DNA of 64,000 nucleotides from Chryseobacterium scophthalmum (GTDB taxonomy: Bacteria > Bacteroidota > Bacteroidia > Flavobacteriales > Weeksellaceae). The notes beneath the pieces were generated by a model. It saw only the letters and a program-made list of their open reading frames with translations, did no database searches and was not told the origin of the DNA. The stretch spans positions 983,217 to 1,047,216 of the forward strand of contig NZ_FSRQ01000002.1 of assembly GCF_900143185.1 (NCBI RefSeq), written 5' to 3'. The translations under genes and the position numbers were made by a program. Each line of letters begins with the position of its first letter. Within the stretch, counting starts at the first letter, position 1. Positions 19,767-28,513 of this stretch are shown here, in pieces.

Positions 19767-20234
19767 TTATTTAATGAAAAATTCTTTTAGTTCTCCTTTT
19801 TTTATTAATTCAATATTATTAGAACTTATCATTTTATAAATATAACCAAATTGAATATCCTCATCAAATGATCCATTATTTTTGGTTTCCTTGATAAAGT
19901 TATTATTGAGAGCATTCTTCTTTTTGATAATATCATACTTTGGATTATAAGATTCTGCTATGATAATTTTATAATCTTTATATTTAAAAGCACCTAATTT
20001 ACTAATCCTATCTATAGGGAAAACCTCATTCTCTTTTTCTGTAGCTAAAATGATTAATGTATCTTGTCTGGAAAAAACGTAAAAAACGTTTAATTTTTTA
20101 TTATTTTCATTTAATTTATTAATGTCTTCTATTAAGGTATTATATATTTTATCAGATACGAAAATTTCATTATTGCTTTGTTGTTTACAAGAATAAAGAA
20201 ATATAAGCAGCGCAAGTATAATTATTTTTTTCAT
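19767..20234 (-). CDS. Small lipoprotein, probable immunity protein for the RHS toxin
   Basis: This 155-residue protein has a lipoprotein signal (LLIFLYSC, Cys16) and a mature part rich in Asn, Lys and Ile (NNEIFVSDKIYNTLIEDINKL), with no family I recognise. Its ATG overlaps the stop of the RHS gene by 4 bases (ATGA), the tightest coupling in this locus and the usual place for an immunity gene next to a polymorphic toxin. A periplasm-facing lipoprotein would suit a toxin that arrives from outside. The role is inferred from position and size only. Confidence 0.65.
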   Translation of the reverse strand: MKKIIILALLIFLYSCKQQSNNEIFVSDKIYNTLIEDINKLNENNKKLNVFYVFSRQDTLIILATEKENEVFPIDRISKLGAFKYKDYKIIIAESYNPKYDIIKKKNALNNNFIKETKNNGSFDEDIQFGYIYKMISSNNIELIKKGELKEFFIK

Positions 20235-23200
20235 TTTTCTAATGATTTAAGATTTAAATTACCATTGATAATCAGTCCTTTTTTGACAGATATATCATTT
20301 ACTACTTCTCCATTTTTTATATAGCGTCTGTATTCATATACTCTTTGAGGATTTCCGTCTGAAGTGATAACAAAATGACGAGGATATTTTCCGCTTGCAT
20401 TATCAAGAGAGACTGCTGCATTCATATCACCGGTATTTGGCAAAGTACCTCTCGGATGATTATGTATTTCGAAAGATAGTTTCGAAACTCCTCTATGTGA
20501 GAAAATTGGTGTGACAACGTCAGTTTGGTGTCCTGTAAAAATTGTATAGTTCATTTTAGAGCCAATCTTGTGTCCAGCGAGTCCCCATTCAACATTCGTA
20601 TTATCAATTAAGAACGTATATAGAGAAGATGCAGTAGTAGAATTGTTTGTAAAGCCTCTACTTAGTCCTTTGGGAAACATCGGAGCAGTAGTGTGTGGAT
20701 ATTTAGCATTTTGAGGATCTTTAAAATTTAAAGATAATTCAGATATTGGTGTTGAATCTGTTGGCGCACTTTTTTTTATGACATGTGGATCAACAGAATT
20801 ATCTACATTGCCTTTACTATCAGTGACAAAAAGCCTGTCATCACTCCTCTCTTCGCTTCTATCGTTAGGGTCAACCCTTTTAACCTGGCCATCCTGTAGT
20901 AACTTGTAATCCGTTAAAACACCCCTCCCGTCTGGGTCAATATTACTGATAGGATTGTTCATCACATAGTTGTAAGGTGACCAACTTGTATATTCCTCAC
21001 TTAATGAATCTACGACACCCCATCGTCCAATATCCGGCATGTAGAATCTTGCACCATAATCATACATTCCCGTCTCTTGCAACTCCTTACCGTTGTACTT
21101 ATACTGATAAGACTGATTTCCTGCCAAACCATTATAACCTTCATGCTTTAATCCAAAAGGATAGTAGTTGTTTTCTTCAAGAACTTCTATGCTGTTCCCA
21201 TTATGGAAATAGCTTAATCTCACGTTTCCTAAATGATCACTGTAATTGTAAATATACTTATTTTTTTCAAAGTCAAAGTAGCCTTCGGACGTAGGTACAA
21301 ATTTTAAAGTAATACCCGTATCGTAAGGATTTTGAGAGGTACTCATTTTTGTGTATTTCCGCTGATATTGAAAGCCTTCTAAATAATCAACTTCTGTAAA
21401 ATCTTCCATATAGGGACTTATATTATCTACTCGTTTTGCATATTTTGTTCCATTAGCTTTATATTTATAAGTATGTCTTGGCCCTTCTGCATCTAAACCA
21501 GGAAGCCAACCACCACCTACAACAGCATTAACTAATGTTGGGAGGTTAAGATGATTATATTCAATTTTAGAAATATTCTTGTCCATATGATTTGTCATAT
21601 TTCCATTAGTATCATAAGAAATATTATTCCGAACAGGAAAGAATGGATATCCTGAATTATTCTGGCTAACATCTTGTACAGACTCAAGCTGATTACTTTG
21701 ATTACCAAATGCATATTTATACACTAAAAAATCGATACCGTTGGCAGTCGTACCATTTGATCCTGCTGTTCGCTGAAGGGTCGTGATATTACTATTAATA
21801 TCGTAGGTAATTTTTTCAAAATATTCTCCGAGTGTAGGATTGGTATCCTTTTGGAAAAAACCTGCTGACAATCTGTTAAGTTTATCGTAAACATAACCAT
21901 ATCTTCTCAGATTACTGTTGCCGTCTGTAGACGTTTTCCAATCGGTTTCAGCAATATTGCCATTGAACTTTGGCTGTACAATTAAATTTTGGAAATTCAG
22001 ATTGGGTACTGATTGACCTTCAACAGTATTATATTTAATTTTATAACCGAATAGATCTTCTGTTCCTAAATTTACTGGATCATTAATATGAGTCATCCAG
22101 CCACGGATATTATATTGATAATCTATTGTTTGAAGACCACTACCAAGTATCGTTCCTCCTACTTTTTTCTGAATGACTTGTGAGATATCGTTGTAGTCAT
22201 TCTGAGCCAATATCTCTTCTGCATTGTTGTCAACTTTATGTTTGTGTACTTTGATCCTGTTCTGACTATCATATGTGAATGATTCAATAATTTCTCTCTC
22301 CGTATCACCGCTAAGTCTTTTATGACGGGTTATAACTTTTTTTGGGACACCTGAGAATTCCAATTGCGATTCGGTTTTTGTATAACCTCCCAGGTGATTG
22401 ATGGAATGGCTTGATATTGCTCTGCCCTTTTTGTCATACCAGCTGTAAGTCTTAGTCCAGTTGTTATCTTCTATATTTTTGATGTAGGAAGCTAAAAGCA
22501 TACCTTTAGTATTGATTTTTGCTGCAGTATTGTCTGTTATGATTTGATTCGATAGCGTATTAGTTACTGGTGGAGTACCAGATGGATAGCTATCATAATA
22601 ATTAACGGATAATATGGTTTCTAAATATGGAAAATGATTATTAGAGTAGTAAACTTGCATTCCATTTTTCGTAAAGCCTACGCCATCTCGATTTTCAATA
22701 ATTAAATTATTAAGAATCATATTTTGCATATCAGCTCTGTTTGATCCTCCTACAATCCCCGTCATGATTACTCTGCCAAATTTATCATATTTTGTAAAGA
22801 GCCATTTGTCGGAAGGATGCATTACTGCATCTTGTGTAAAAATTAGTCGGTCTGCTTTATCATACACCATGTACTCCCAGCCTTTTCCAGGAAGCTTTTT
22901 CTCAACAAGCCTATTTTTTCGGTCATATTTATACTGATAACAAAGATTGTTTAATGTGGTCTCCGGAAGCTGAGTACCTGAGGCTAAATTTTTGAAAAGA
23001 TCCGTCCCTTTTGGGGAAATTACATAAGCAAGCTGCCCGTAATTATTATAAATATAATATGTGTCAGCGCTCTCTGTAGCAGATAATATTTTTCTTACTA
23101 ATATTATCTGTCCCTCACTATTCTTAAATTCAATGCTTTGATTACCATCTTCATCAGTTACAGAATTCTTATAAAGTTGACCTGCGGTATAATCTATAGA

Positions 23201-26898: not shown

Positions 26899-26905
26899 TA
26901 TGTTT

Positions 26906-28513
26906 TTATTTTTTAATCAATTTTGCATTAGCAGTTTTCTCAGTATCTGTTTTTATGACGATCAAATACGCTCCCTGAATCAGGTTTTGTGTATTAATCT
27001 TCGTTATTTTATTTTTGGTTTTCAAACTTTGCAATTGTCTTCCTCCCATGTCATACAACGTAATATCTGCTTCTTTGAAATCAAATCCTATTTCCACATA
27101 AGCATAATCTGAAACAGGATTCGGATAAATCTTAATATTCTGTTTTTCTATTAACTGGTCAATTTGCGAATCTGCAAGCTTTACAATCTTCCAGTTCTCT
27201 TTTCCGAGTTCTTCAGCACTTGTTCCAGCGAGCACAATAGAACCGTCTTTATTCATTTTTAGATCAGAAAGCCTTTCCTCTTTCTTTCTAGATTCTCCCT
27301 TTACATGTTTTCTCCACTGTTCGTTTCCGTCATTATCGATATACATCATCCAAAATGTTTCATCTTCCGCTTCAATCCTTCCTTCTGCCTGAGTGTAACC
27401 ACCTAGTAAAACGCCTTTTGAATTTTTACCATCTCTTGTGCTAATCACATTCATCCCCATTAGGATATCACGGTTCTTAAAATTATAAGACTTTTGCCAC
27501 TGTTCTTCTCCTTTTGTGTTTAAAGAAATCAGCCAGATATCTGTTCCTTCTTCAATTCCAACGGTTTTATTTCCTGATTTATCAGATCTCGATTCTCCAC
27601 CAATAATATATCCCGAAGAAGTAAAAACCATTGTTCTCAAATGATCATCTCCTTTACCTCCGAAATTCTTTTCCCATTCTACTTTATTGTCTTTGCTGAG
27701 TTTGATTATCCAATAATCGCCTTCCCCAAAATTGGGACTGGATTTGGAGTGTCGTGATGCGGGATTCGAGATTTCGTTACCGGAACCCGAACCATACGAC
27801 TCCGAACTCGAAACCCGAAACTCGGAACTCCTCGAATAAACACCCAACAACCCTCCTCCATCAGGCGTAGGAATCATCTTTTCTACTTCATCCAAACCTC
27901 TTCCGCCTAAAACTAATTCTGAAAGAACTTTTCCGTTTTTATCAAGTCTTGTAACCGTTACATCTTTTGAGCCGAATCCGTTGGTTGCGTTCTGAATATT
28001 TCCTGCGATCATAAAACCAAAATCAGCGGTCTGAATTACAGATCTTGCTTCTTCGTCCTGCGATGTTCCTAGAGTTTTTTGCCACAATTCATCTCCGAAT
28101 TCGTTGATTCTGATCAACCAGATGTCCGATCCTCCTTTAGAAGAATCTTTTTTGTCTAAGCCTTTTCCTGAATGTGACGTTCCCGCTAAAAGAAAACCTC
28201 CTTCTTGGGTTGCAACGGTTGCCGATAAAAAGTCATGATTCTGTCCTGAGAAATACTTTTCCCACACTTCTTCTCCTTGTTGATTAAGCTTGACAAGATG
28301 AAAATCGTAGCCGTTGTTTTGTTTGTTTTCGGAAGTGATCTTTTTGGATTGAATCGAACTTCCTGTAATAAGATATTGTTGATCAACTGTTGTGGTGACT
28401 TGTGAAAGGAAATCCTGAGTAGAGGATTTAATATCTTTTTGCCATACCACATCCTGAGAATACAATACGGCGGTTGTGCATATTAAAAATACGCTTATGT
28501 AGAGTTTTTTCAT
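26906..28513 (-). CDS. T9SS-sorted beta-propeller protein heading the RHS operon
   Basis: This 535-residue protein has a signal peptide (cleavage near VLYSQ). About seven blade-like repeats follow, of the form GGSDIWLIRINEFGDELWQKTLGTSQDEEARSV...FMIAGN. The C-terminus is a T9SS type A sorting domain (IKIYPNPVSDYAYVEIGF ... YLIVIKTD), so it is exported across the outer membrane. Between residues of about 227 and 262 a Ser-rich insert (SSEFRVSSSESYGSGSGNEI) breaks a blade; it is encoded by degenerate CGAAACTCGAA-type repeats. As first gene of the RHS operon it may anchor or display the RHS proteins. Confidence 0.85.
   Translation of the reverse strand: MKKLYISVFLICTTAVLYSQDVVWQKDIKSSTQDFLSQVTTTVDQQYLITGSSIQSKKITSENKQNNGYDFHLVKLNQQGEEVWEKYFSGQNHDFLSATVATQEGGFLLAGTSHSGKGLDKKDSSKGGSDIWLIRINEFGDELWQKTLGTSQDEEARSVIQTADFGFMIAGNIQNATNGFGSKDVTVTRLDKNGKVLSELVLGGRGLDEVEKMIPTPDGGGLLGVYSRSSEFRVSSSESYGSGSGNEISNPASRHSKSSPNFGEGDYWIIKLSKDNKVEWEKNFGGKGDDHLRTMVFTSSGYIIGGESRSDKSGNKTVGIEEGTDIWLISLNTKGEEQWQKSYNFKNRDILMGMNVISTRDGKNSKGVLLGGYTQAEGRIEAEDETFWMMYIDNDGNEQWRKHVKGESRKKEERLSDLKMNKDGSIVLAGTSAEELGKENWKIVKLADSQIDQLIEKQNIKIYPNPVSDYAYVEIGFDFKEADITLYDMGGRQLQSLKTKNKITKINTQNLIQGAYLIVIKTDTEKTANAKLIKK
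27728..27836. repeat. Degenerate CGAAACTCGAA-type repeat inside a coding region
   Basis: Bases 27786-27836 contain run-on copies of the unit (G)AACTCGAAACCCGAAACTCG with substitutions, and 27728-27785 contain related GGGATTCGAGATTTCG units. They are richer in GC than the flanks. They keep the frame of the T9SS propeller gene and add roughly 36 residues. The surrounding blades show no counterpart. Confidence 0.6.

Follow-up and report, generated by a model that had tools for sequence, protein, structure and literature searches.

In single-chain Rhs effectors, as in the BC part of Tc toxins, a cocoon encloses the tip of the protein. Rhs effectors of the type VI secretion system (T6SS) are single chains that are accompanied by an immunity gene and loaded through PAAR or VgrG. 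We analysed a 64,000-nucleotide stretch (henceforth the window) of the 4.47-Mb genome of Chryseobacterium scophthalmum (Weeksellaceae; assembly GCF_900143185.1, contig NZ_FSRQ01000002.1, positions 983,217 to 1,047,216). Four adjacent minus-strand genes in it encode a beta-propeller protein with a sorting domain of the type IX secretion system (T9SS), a shell protein, an RHS protein with a variable C-terminal tip, and a small lipoprotein. We consider it probable that this unit is an antibacterial polymorphic toxin delivered by contact or at the surface, in which a T9SS-linked propeller is combined with a cocoon made of two pieces. An earlier note, made from the DNA sequence alone, had read the locus as a polymorphic toxin system; given the protein families, the conserved gene order and the joint variation of tip and downstream gene, this was largely right.

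Several parts of this arrangement have precedents, cited here from the consulted parts of each paper. Zhang et al. (2012, PMC3482391) describe the toxin domain Tox-JAB-1 as strictly linked to the lipoprotein Imm65. Steele et al. (2021, PMC8125069) reported that most rhs genes of Apibacter adjoin genes for T9SS type A sorting-domain proteins and that many carry SpvB and TcdB parts, and they proposed a link to T9SS. In 2025, three RHS-family genes of Apibacter raozihei were counted among T9SS effectors (PMC12645872). TANFOR toxins have T9SS neighbours (Jana et al. 2020, PMC7073777), and for polymorphic toxins whose tips are lipocones a 2025 paper names T9SS as one delivery hallmark (PMC12419801). 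The pairing of Tox-JAB-1 with lipoprotein Imm65 had thus already been predicted (2012), and the placement of rhs genes beside sorting-domain genes reported (2021).

The locus shares with Tox-JAB-1/Imm65 its occurrence in Bacteroidetes, the RHS carrier, the NxxxE, HxH and D residues, and a linked, lipobox-bearing lipoprotein encoded directly downstream of the tip. It differs in its lipoprotein: the window's own and nine aligned relatives match no Pfam immunity model, although it is not established that Pfam holds a model for Imm65. Zhang et al. list a route by the type II secretion system and Sec; the terms “type IX” and “PorSS” were not found there. With the Apibacter genes the locus has in common the family Weeksellaceae, an rhs gene beside a sorting-domain gene and SpvB/TcdB-type N-terminal parts, whereas a propeller, a split into two proteins and variation of the shell are not described in the consulted parts of that paper (PMC8125069). 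TANFOR toxins likewise occur in Bacteroidetes, mostly with a Sec signal, a variable toxin end, a downstream immunity gene and a T9SS sorting-domain protein nearby, but where the present locus has an RHS cocoon and a propeller, they have a TANFOR domain at the N-terminus and neighbours with SprB repeats. Our Pfam and NCBIfam scans gave no match named TANFOR, and the presence of such a model in either library was not confirmed.

The four-gene unit and its conservation

The first gene (26906..28513, minus strand) encodes a 535-residue Sec-exported propeller protein. Its residues 462-533 form the T9SS C-terminal sorting domain (26915..27130; PF18962, E = 2.7e-11; TIGR04183, E = 4.4e-10), and the protein matches the CylK beta-propeller in sequence (E = 2.4e-14). 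The shell gene follows (23725..26898, minus strand; 1057 residues, the first cocoon part, SpvB/TcB-like in its predicted structure), and then the gene for the RHS protein (20231..23716, minus strand; 1161 residues, the second cocoon part plus the tip). In the latter we found DUF6443 at residues 32-141 (23294..23623; PF20041, E = 4.9e-33), the Rhs-associated core domain at residues 851-930 (20927..21166; TIGR03696, E = 2e-16) and, within the variable tip (residues 932-1161, 20234..20923), Toxin-JAB1 at residues 1023-1095 (20432..20650; PF15659, E = 2.9e-10, 40.9 bits against a cut-off of 21). The last gene (19767..20234, minus strand) encodes a 155-residue lipoprotein, the candidate immunity protein, which has no Pfam match. 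At the first two junctions the genes are 7 and 8 bases apart, and the third is an ATGA overlap that couples the lipoprotein gene to the toxin gene. A tight minus-strand unit with a T9SS-sorted propeller had been claimed before, and the open reading frame (ORF) coordinates, the sorting-domain profiles and the CylK match all agree with it. None of the four proteins has a match in PADLOC at E ≤ 0.1.

The propeller, shell and RHS genes are inherited together and in a fixed order. Among 148 genomes of the genus, matches at E ≤ 1e-50 were detected in 140 for the RHS protein and in 140 for the propeller, and the genomes without either are the same eight (G060, G075, G078, G087, G098, G104, G115 and G134; Fisher 2.1e-13, uncorrected for relatedness). 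Those eight genomes and G067 are the nine in which no shell match reaches E ≤ 0.001. We then read the gene order at 20 loci, taken as every seventh of the RHS matches among the best places listed. At all 19 informative loci a propeller, one shell (two in L107) and the RHS gene follow one another in this order, the 20th locus beginning at a contig end. An ORF of 60-400 residues on the same strand begins ≤ 30 bp after the RHS stop at 19 of the 20 loci. Because the same order recurs across the genus, the four-gene arrangement is not due to chance. In the named genomes (best 80 of 583 relatives), a propeller could be traced for 67 of the 79 full RHS genes. Eleven of the remaining 12 start <5 kb from a contig end, where a propeller fragment is seen in two cases, and the twelfth, the second RHS gene of locus L129, sits after another RHS gene.

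The three-gene order, which the earlier note had proposed to look for in other genomes, is thus conserved across the genus, and it reaches two other families of the same order. Outside the family, propeller, shell and RHS genes stand in the same order at 6 of the 12 loci read, and all three propellers scanned there carry the sorting domain. An order-wide search at E ≤ 1e-50 had indicated that the propeller is confined to the family, which the reading of these 12 loci refuted. The occurrence in other families implies that the gene order is old, though the propeller is not always beside the RHS gene there.

Some loci depart from the standard layout. The window's genome holds a second copy of the unit (L077, C1:1893000-1911000) with a propeller 91% and an RHS protein 59% identical to those of the window; its shell is present as two separate ORFs (260 and 614 residues), and its tip and downstream gene are unrelated to the window's. 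For searches of this genome we used protein queries, because the PF05593 profile gave no match in it although hmmscan finds the family in the shell. Both loci of genome G150, from another family of the order, have an extra gene of 447 residues between shell and RHS gene (L221 4172-5515 and L227 10251-11594), with a Shufflon_N match on the L221 copy. L219 (5616-11741) encodes a 2041-residue shell with a DUF5977 repeat array of 12 stretches, the best at residues 1701-1765. Elsewhere in the window, a minus-strand gene at 10736-14449 encodes a 1237-residue protein with a calcineurin-like phosphoesterase domain.

Variation of the tip, its downstream gene and the shell

The earlier note had described a JAB-like tip with Glu1043, His1085 and His1087. 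The Toxin-JAB1 match confirms the family and these positions are correct; Asn1039 and Asp1097 accompany them, and all five residues are invariant in seven aligned tips. Toxin-JAB1 is matched by all seven relatives scanned. Relatives of this tip occur in 19 of the 148 genomes, and in a phylum-wide sample of 326 genomes the tip was found in three and the lipoprotein in two. Tips as a whole are diverse: taking the last 190 residues and dropping duplicates, 112 tips fall into 71 groups, and 88 downstream genes fall into 72.

The tip and the gene that follows it vary together. We detected relatives of the lipoprotein in 14 of the 148 genomes (E ≤ 0.01), nine with strong matches (E ≤ 1e-20). In seven of these nine the lipoprotein gene is beside a related tip, either directly (G000, G025, G035, where the tip gene is broken, G082, G129 and G142) or one gene further (G019). 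In G050 and G112, it belongs to an array of small genes that follows RHS genes with other tips. The window's genome also has an unaccompanied paralogue of the lipoprotein (L078 7760-8236; 62% identical), and no adjoining RHS gene was found. The lipobox (S15-C16) is invariant in 10 aligned lipoproteins, the window's included. Strong tip matches (E ≤ 1e-20) occur in nine genomes, two of them (G097 and G137) without the lipoprotein, and in these two other genes, lipoprotein-like by eye, follow the tip. Across all pairs of loci that have a downstream gene, with duplicates dropped, 16 are similar in both tip and downstream gene, 23 in the tip only, 2 in the downstream gene only and 3787 in neither. 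Under a stricter definition of similarity, with duplicates (five loci twice) included, the counts are 17, 1, 6 and 4441. The expectation that tip and downstream gene change together, another check proposed with the original reading, is borne out by these pair counts, which show the tip-immunity linkage as a pattern in the sequences compared.

Many of the downstream genes appear to encode exported proteins. Of those encoding 100-300 residues, 64 of 87 look exported and 34 of 87 look like lipoproteins by a crude signal rule, compared with 187 and 41, respectively, among 516 background ORFs of the same size from the same loci, which may include non-genes. This suggests that many tips of the RHS carrier act in the envelope. 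It is mainly because of this excess of exported downstream genes that we regard the JAB tip as more likely a periplasmic peptidase than a nuclease.

JAB tips have carriers of three kinds: the full unit (the window, L079 and L080), orphan cassettes (L080, L081, L119 and L124), and a short carrier of ~400 residues with a signal peptide (L082, L083, L084 and L120-L123). In several loci, two genes of about 480 and 370 residues precede the short carrier. Free-standing tip/immunity cassettes were found in L080, L089, L095 and L119, and also in the window, where a degenerate, frameshifted orphan remnant of an Rhs core and tip lies directly 3' of the lipoprotein gene (about 19476..19745, minus strand). 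This remnant had been overlooked before; its pieces, compared apart, match Rhs core ends elsewhere. It adjoins a stretch at about 19130-19400 that resembles, by eye, the end of an insertion sequence. In L080, L117 and L081, genes that on visual inspection resemble tyrosine recombinases and IS3-type transposases are found close to JAB tips, which suggests that these tips are carried on mobile cassettes.

The earlier note expected only the tip and the lipoprotein to vary, and here it was wrong, as most of the shell protein varies too. We computed mean pairwise identity along the proteins over 36-42 loci, chosen partly for strong matches. Identity ranges from 0.61 to 0.89 along the propeller. In the RHS protein it is 0.39-0.75 to residue 900, 0.45 at residues 901-950 and 0.14-0.15 beyond, the conserved body ending near residue 930. 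In the shell (36 loci), it is 0.15-0.32 over residues 1-900 and 0.41-0.64 over residues 901-1057. The fast-varying part of the shell thus extends over about residues 30-900 (24199..26811, minus strand) and is followed by a conserved YD-repeat end (23728..24198, minus strand), which contains the single RHS repeat recognised by Pfam (residues 1014-1038). By these alignments, the shell front, approximately the first 900 residues, is a second fast-varying segment between conserved neighbours. Of 59 shells chosen for coverage, 39 align over their full length to that of the window at 26-54% identity with shared invariant residues, so the front is a fast-varying segment and not a set of unrelated domains.

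Closely related pairs of loci, limited to those with both shells captured, indicate that the shell front can change independently of the tip. In L114/L127, identity is 0.94 in the RHS body, 0.92 in the propeller and 0.76 in the shell end, and it drops to 0.30 in the shell front with 0.55 in the tip. The front is at 0.30 and the tip at 0.19 in L102/L144 (RHS body 0.93, propeller 0.94, shell end 0.85) and in L149/L154 (0.92, 0.88 and 0.74). The value of 0.30 is at or just above background, since tips without BLAST similarity score 0.19-0.32. L103/L150 has the opposite pattern, with the shell front kept (0.91) and the tip different (0.32), and in the close pair L109/L111 both are kept (0.95 and 0.97). 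The last 150 residues of the shell also differ (0.21-0.28) in L080/L117, L094/L147, L085/L086 and L162/L174, an effect of additional tails on one or both of the shells; the shells of L080, L085, L117, L147 and L162 extend past the conserved YD-repeat end with such a C-terminal tail. A few loci have tandem shells (L107 1202-7584; L166 upstream of 10001; L225 6109-12544). In L107 and L166 these lie between propeller and RHS gene, with the propeller farther out behind the second shell, so that both would be missed if adjacency alone were considered. Tandem shells may be a mark of shell displacement, and their presence in a few loci suggests that shells are displaced as tips are.

Predicted cocoon, proposed export and rival explanations

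The predicted monomers support the shell and the RHS protein as successive parts of one Tc/Rhs-type cocoon. They resemble in this TcB and TcC, the BC part of Tc toxins, which also has an SpvB-like start, a TcC-like second part and a variable C-terminal region spread over two proteins. The chain is cut at a different point, about 170-190 residues before the Tc junction: in 6l7i_G, 4igl_D and 5kis_B, TcC begins at RHS-protein residue 187-188, and the two proteins do not divide at the TcB/TcC junction. A further difference is that the propeller is here on a separate T9SS-sorted protein. With the T6SS effectors RhsA, Tse15 and RhsP, the RHS protein shares the Rhs cocoon fold, the core and the variable tip; it differs from them in being one of two chains, in its Sec-type N-terminus and in the lack of a PAAR match. 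Loading by T6SS was dropped as a candidate because neither the RHS protein nor the shell has a PAAR or VgrG match in Pfam at E ≤ 1 (the T6SS genes of the genome were not searched). By sequence, the shell matched no solved chain (E ≤ 0.01), and when its profile was compared with that of the RHS protein, no useful relationship emerged (probability 8.6). The split RHS shell of the earlier note is supported, in predicted structure, as a two-protein cocoon with its own split point. Its claim that the toxin is no Tc passenger stands in that no Tc export route was seen (TcA was not searched for), although the cocoon parts themselves are of the Tc/Rhs type.

The propeller has the features of a T9SS type A substrate, a signal peptide and a C-terminal sorting domain, and the window's genome encodes the T9SS translocon protein SprA (TIGR04189; the search covered SprA alone). 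Signal peptides were assigned by eye and with the crude rule rather than SignalP. This rule makes errors: it called the RHS N-terminus a lipoprotein signal, whereas by inspection it is of the Sec type. For the T9SS surface display claimed earlier, the propeller provides the sorting domain; display of the shell and the RHS protein, both without one, is something we infer.

In the mechanism that we propose, Sec would take all four proteins out of the cytoplasm. The shell and the RHS protein would build one hollow cocoon in the periplasm with the tip inside, and the propeller would bind the cocoon and move it across or onto the outer membrane via T9SS. The propeller is cast as the carrier because no other member has a sorting domain and because it comes first in the gene order; its carriage of the cocoon through T9SS is the weakest step of the mechanism. 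The tip, a putative JAB-type metallo-enzyme and most likely a periplasmic peptidase, would then harm the neighbouring cell, and the lipoprotein, anchored so as to face the periplasm, would block the tip in the producer and its kin. Contact with the target or the propeller may be made by the shell front. More tentatively, the unit can be pictured as a Tc-like cocoon adapted to T9SS, in which a separate sorting-domain propeller would escort a two-piece cocoon through SprA, while tip plus immunity on one side and the shell front, which may set the target, on the other change independently. We regard this fuller picture as possible rather than probable.

Several observations weigh against a toxin carried by T9SS and acting in the periplasm. 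Neither the shell nor the RHS protein has a Por_Secre_tail match in Pfam or NCBIfam at E ≤ 1, so it is gene neighbourhood that points to their passage through T9SS, and in the other families 6 of the 12 RHS loci have no adjoining propeller, two of these being near contig ends. TM-scores of the shell model in Foldseek are low (≤ 0.38 by query length). The RHS model has a confidence (pLDDT) <50 over residues 871-1127, so the fold of the tip was not read from it, and the tip matched no solved structure by sequence (E ≤ 1). A Ser, as PSP, is present in four relatives of the tip and absent from the window's tip; the consulted passage on the Tox-JAB-1 motif does not state the position of its Ser. 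The 23 pairs of loci alike in the tip without similarity downstream also speak against a tight pairing. Finally, JAB toxins may be nucleases according to Zhang et al. (PMC3482391), and for a nuclease a periplasmic immunity protein is not needed.

That suggestion, made for Tox-JAB clades, leads to the alternative that survives best, which we nevertheless think rather unlikely: the same system with another target, the tip being a cytoplasmic nuclease-type JAB enzyme and the lipoprotein stopping its entry and not its activity. The immunity candidate, with its invariant lipobox, argues for an envelope target, and so does the enrichment of exported and lipoprotein-like proteins among the downstream genes. 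A second alternative, unlikely in our judgment, accepts a real antibacterial toxin and holds that the propeller is merely a co-expressed surface adhesin, with the cocoon leaving otherwise (by T6SS, vesicles or lysis) or in a propeller-free manner. The missing sorting domains are in its favour, as are the loci without an adjoining propeller (L218, L222, L224, L225, L226 and L232; L222 and L225 are those near contig ends). It is opposed by the strict co-inheritance of propeller and RHS genes over the 148 genomes, with adjacency kept and the propeller first, and by an RHS protein that lacks a PAAR match and has a Sec-type N-terminus by inspection.

We give little credence to a complex aimed at eukaryotes like Tc toxins, with the small downstream genes as accessory factors. 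The cocoon parts are Tc-like, and 27 RHS-family genes of Apibacter raozihei had higher expression in one strain than in a second one at 8 and 16 h after exposure to host cells, according to the consulted part of the report (PMC12645872), but immunity against bacterial rivals would account for downstream genes that are specific to a tip and for lipoproteins of this family kept without a toxin (L078, L085 and L086). A non-weapon role in adhesion or in kin or surface recognition, served by tip and shell diversity as in teneurins, is just as improbable: teneurins and a teneurin-like protein match both the shell and the RHS model and the shell front varies fast, but the tip is an enzyme-family domain that keeps its motif residues, the small gene after it co-varies, and orphan tip cassettes exist.

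Novelty and meaning of the system

The pairing of a T9SS propeller with a two-part RHS shell had been called little described. This holds for the unit of propeller, shell and RHS gene as far as the literature covered here goes, and it does not hold for the parts published in 2012 and 2021. We recognised no description of the unit or of a variable shell in the titles and abstract beginnings covered, which left preprints and most subscription papers outside; the unit was not found in the consulted parts of PMC13018210, PMC10994853 and PMC10202324, and none of the terms sought was found in PMC12618676. Within the literature consulted in part, we likewise found no described case of a second segment, here the shell front, that varies nearly as much as the tips.

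Further study is what Steele et al. (2021) recommend, and Jana et al. (2020) want an experimental model system in which a possible use of T9SS in fights between bacteria can be examined. With strong matches in 140 of the 148 genus genomes, its fixed order, a matched pair of putative toxin and immunity genes and a single sorting-domain protein, the operon is a clean candidate for testing the link between T9SS and antagonism.

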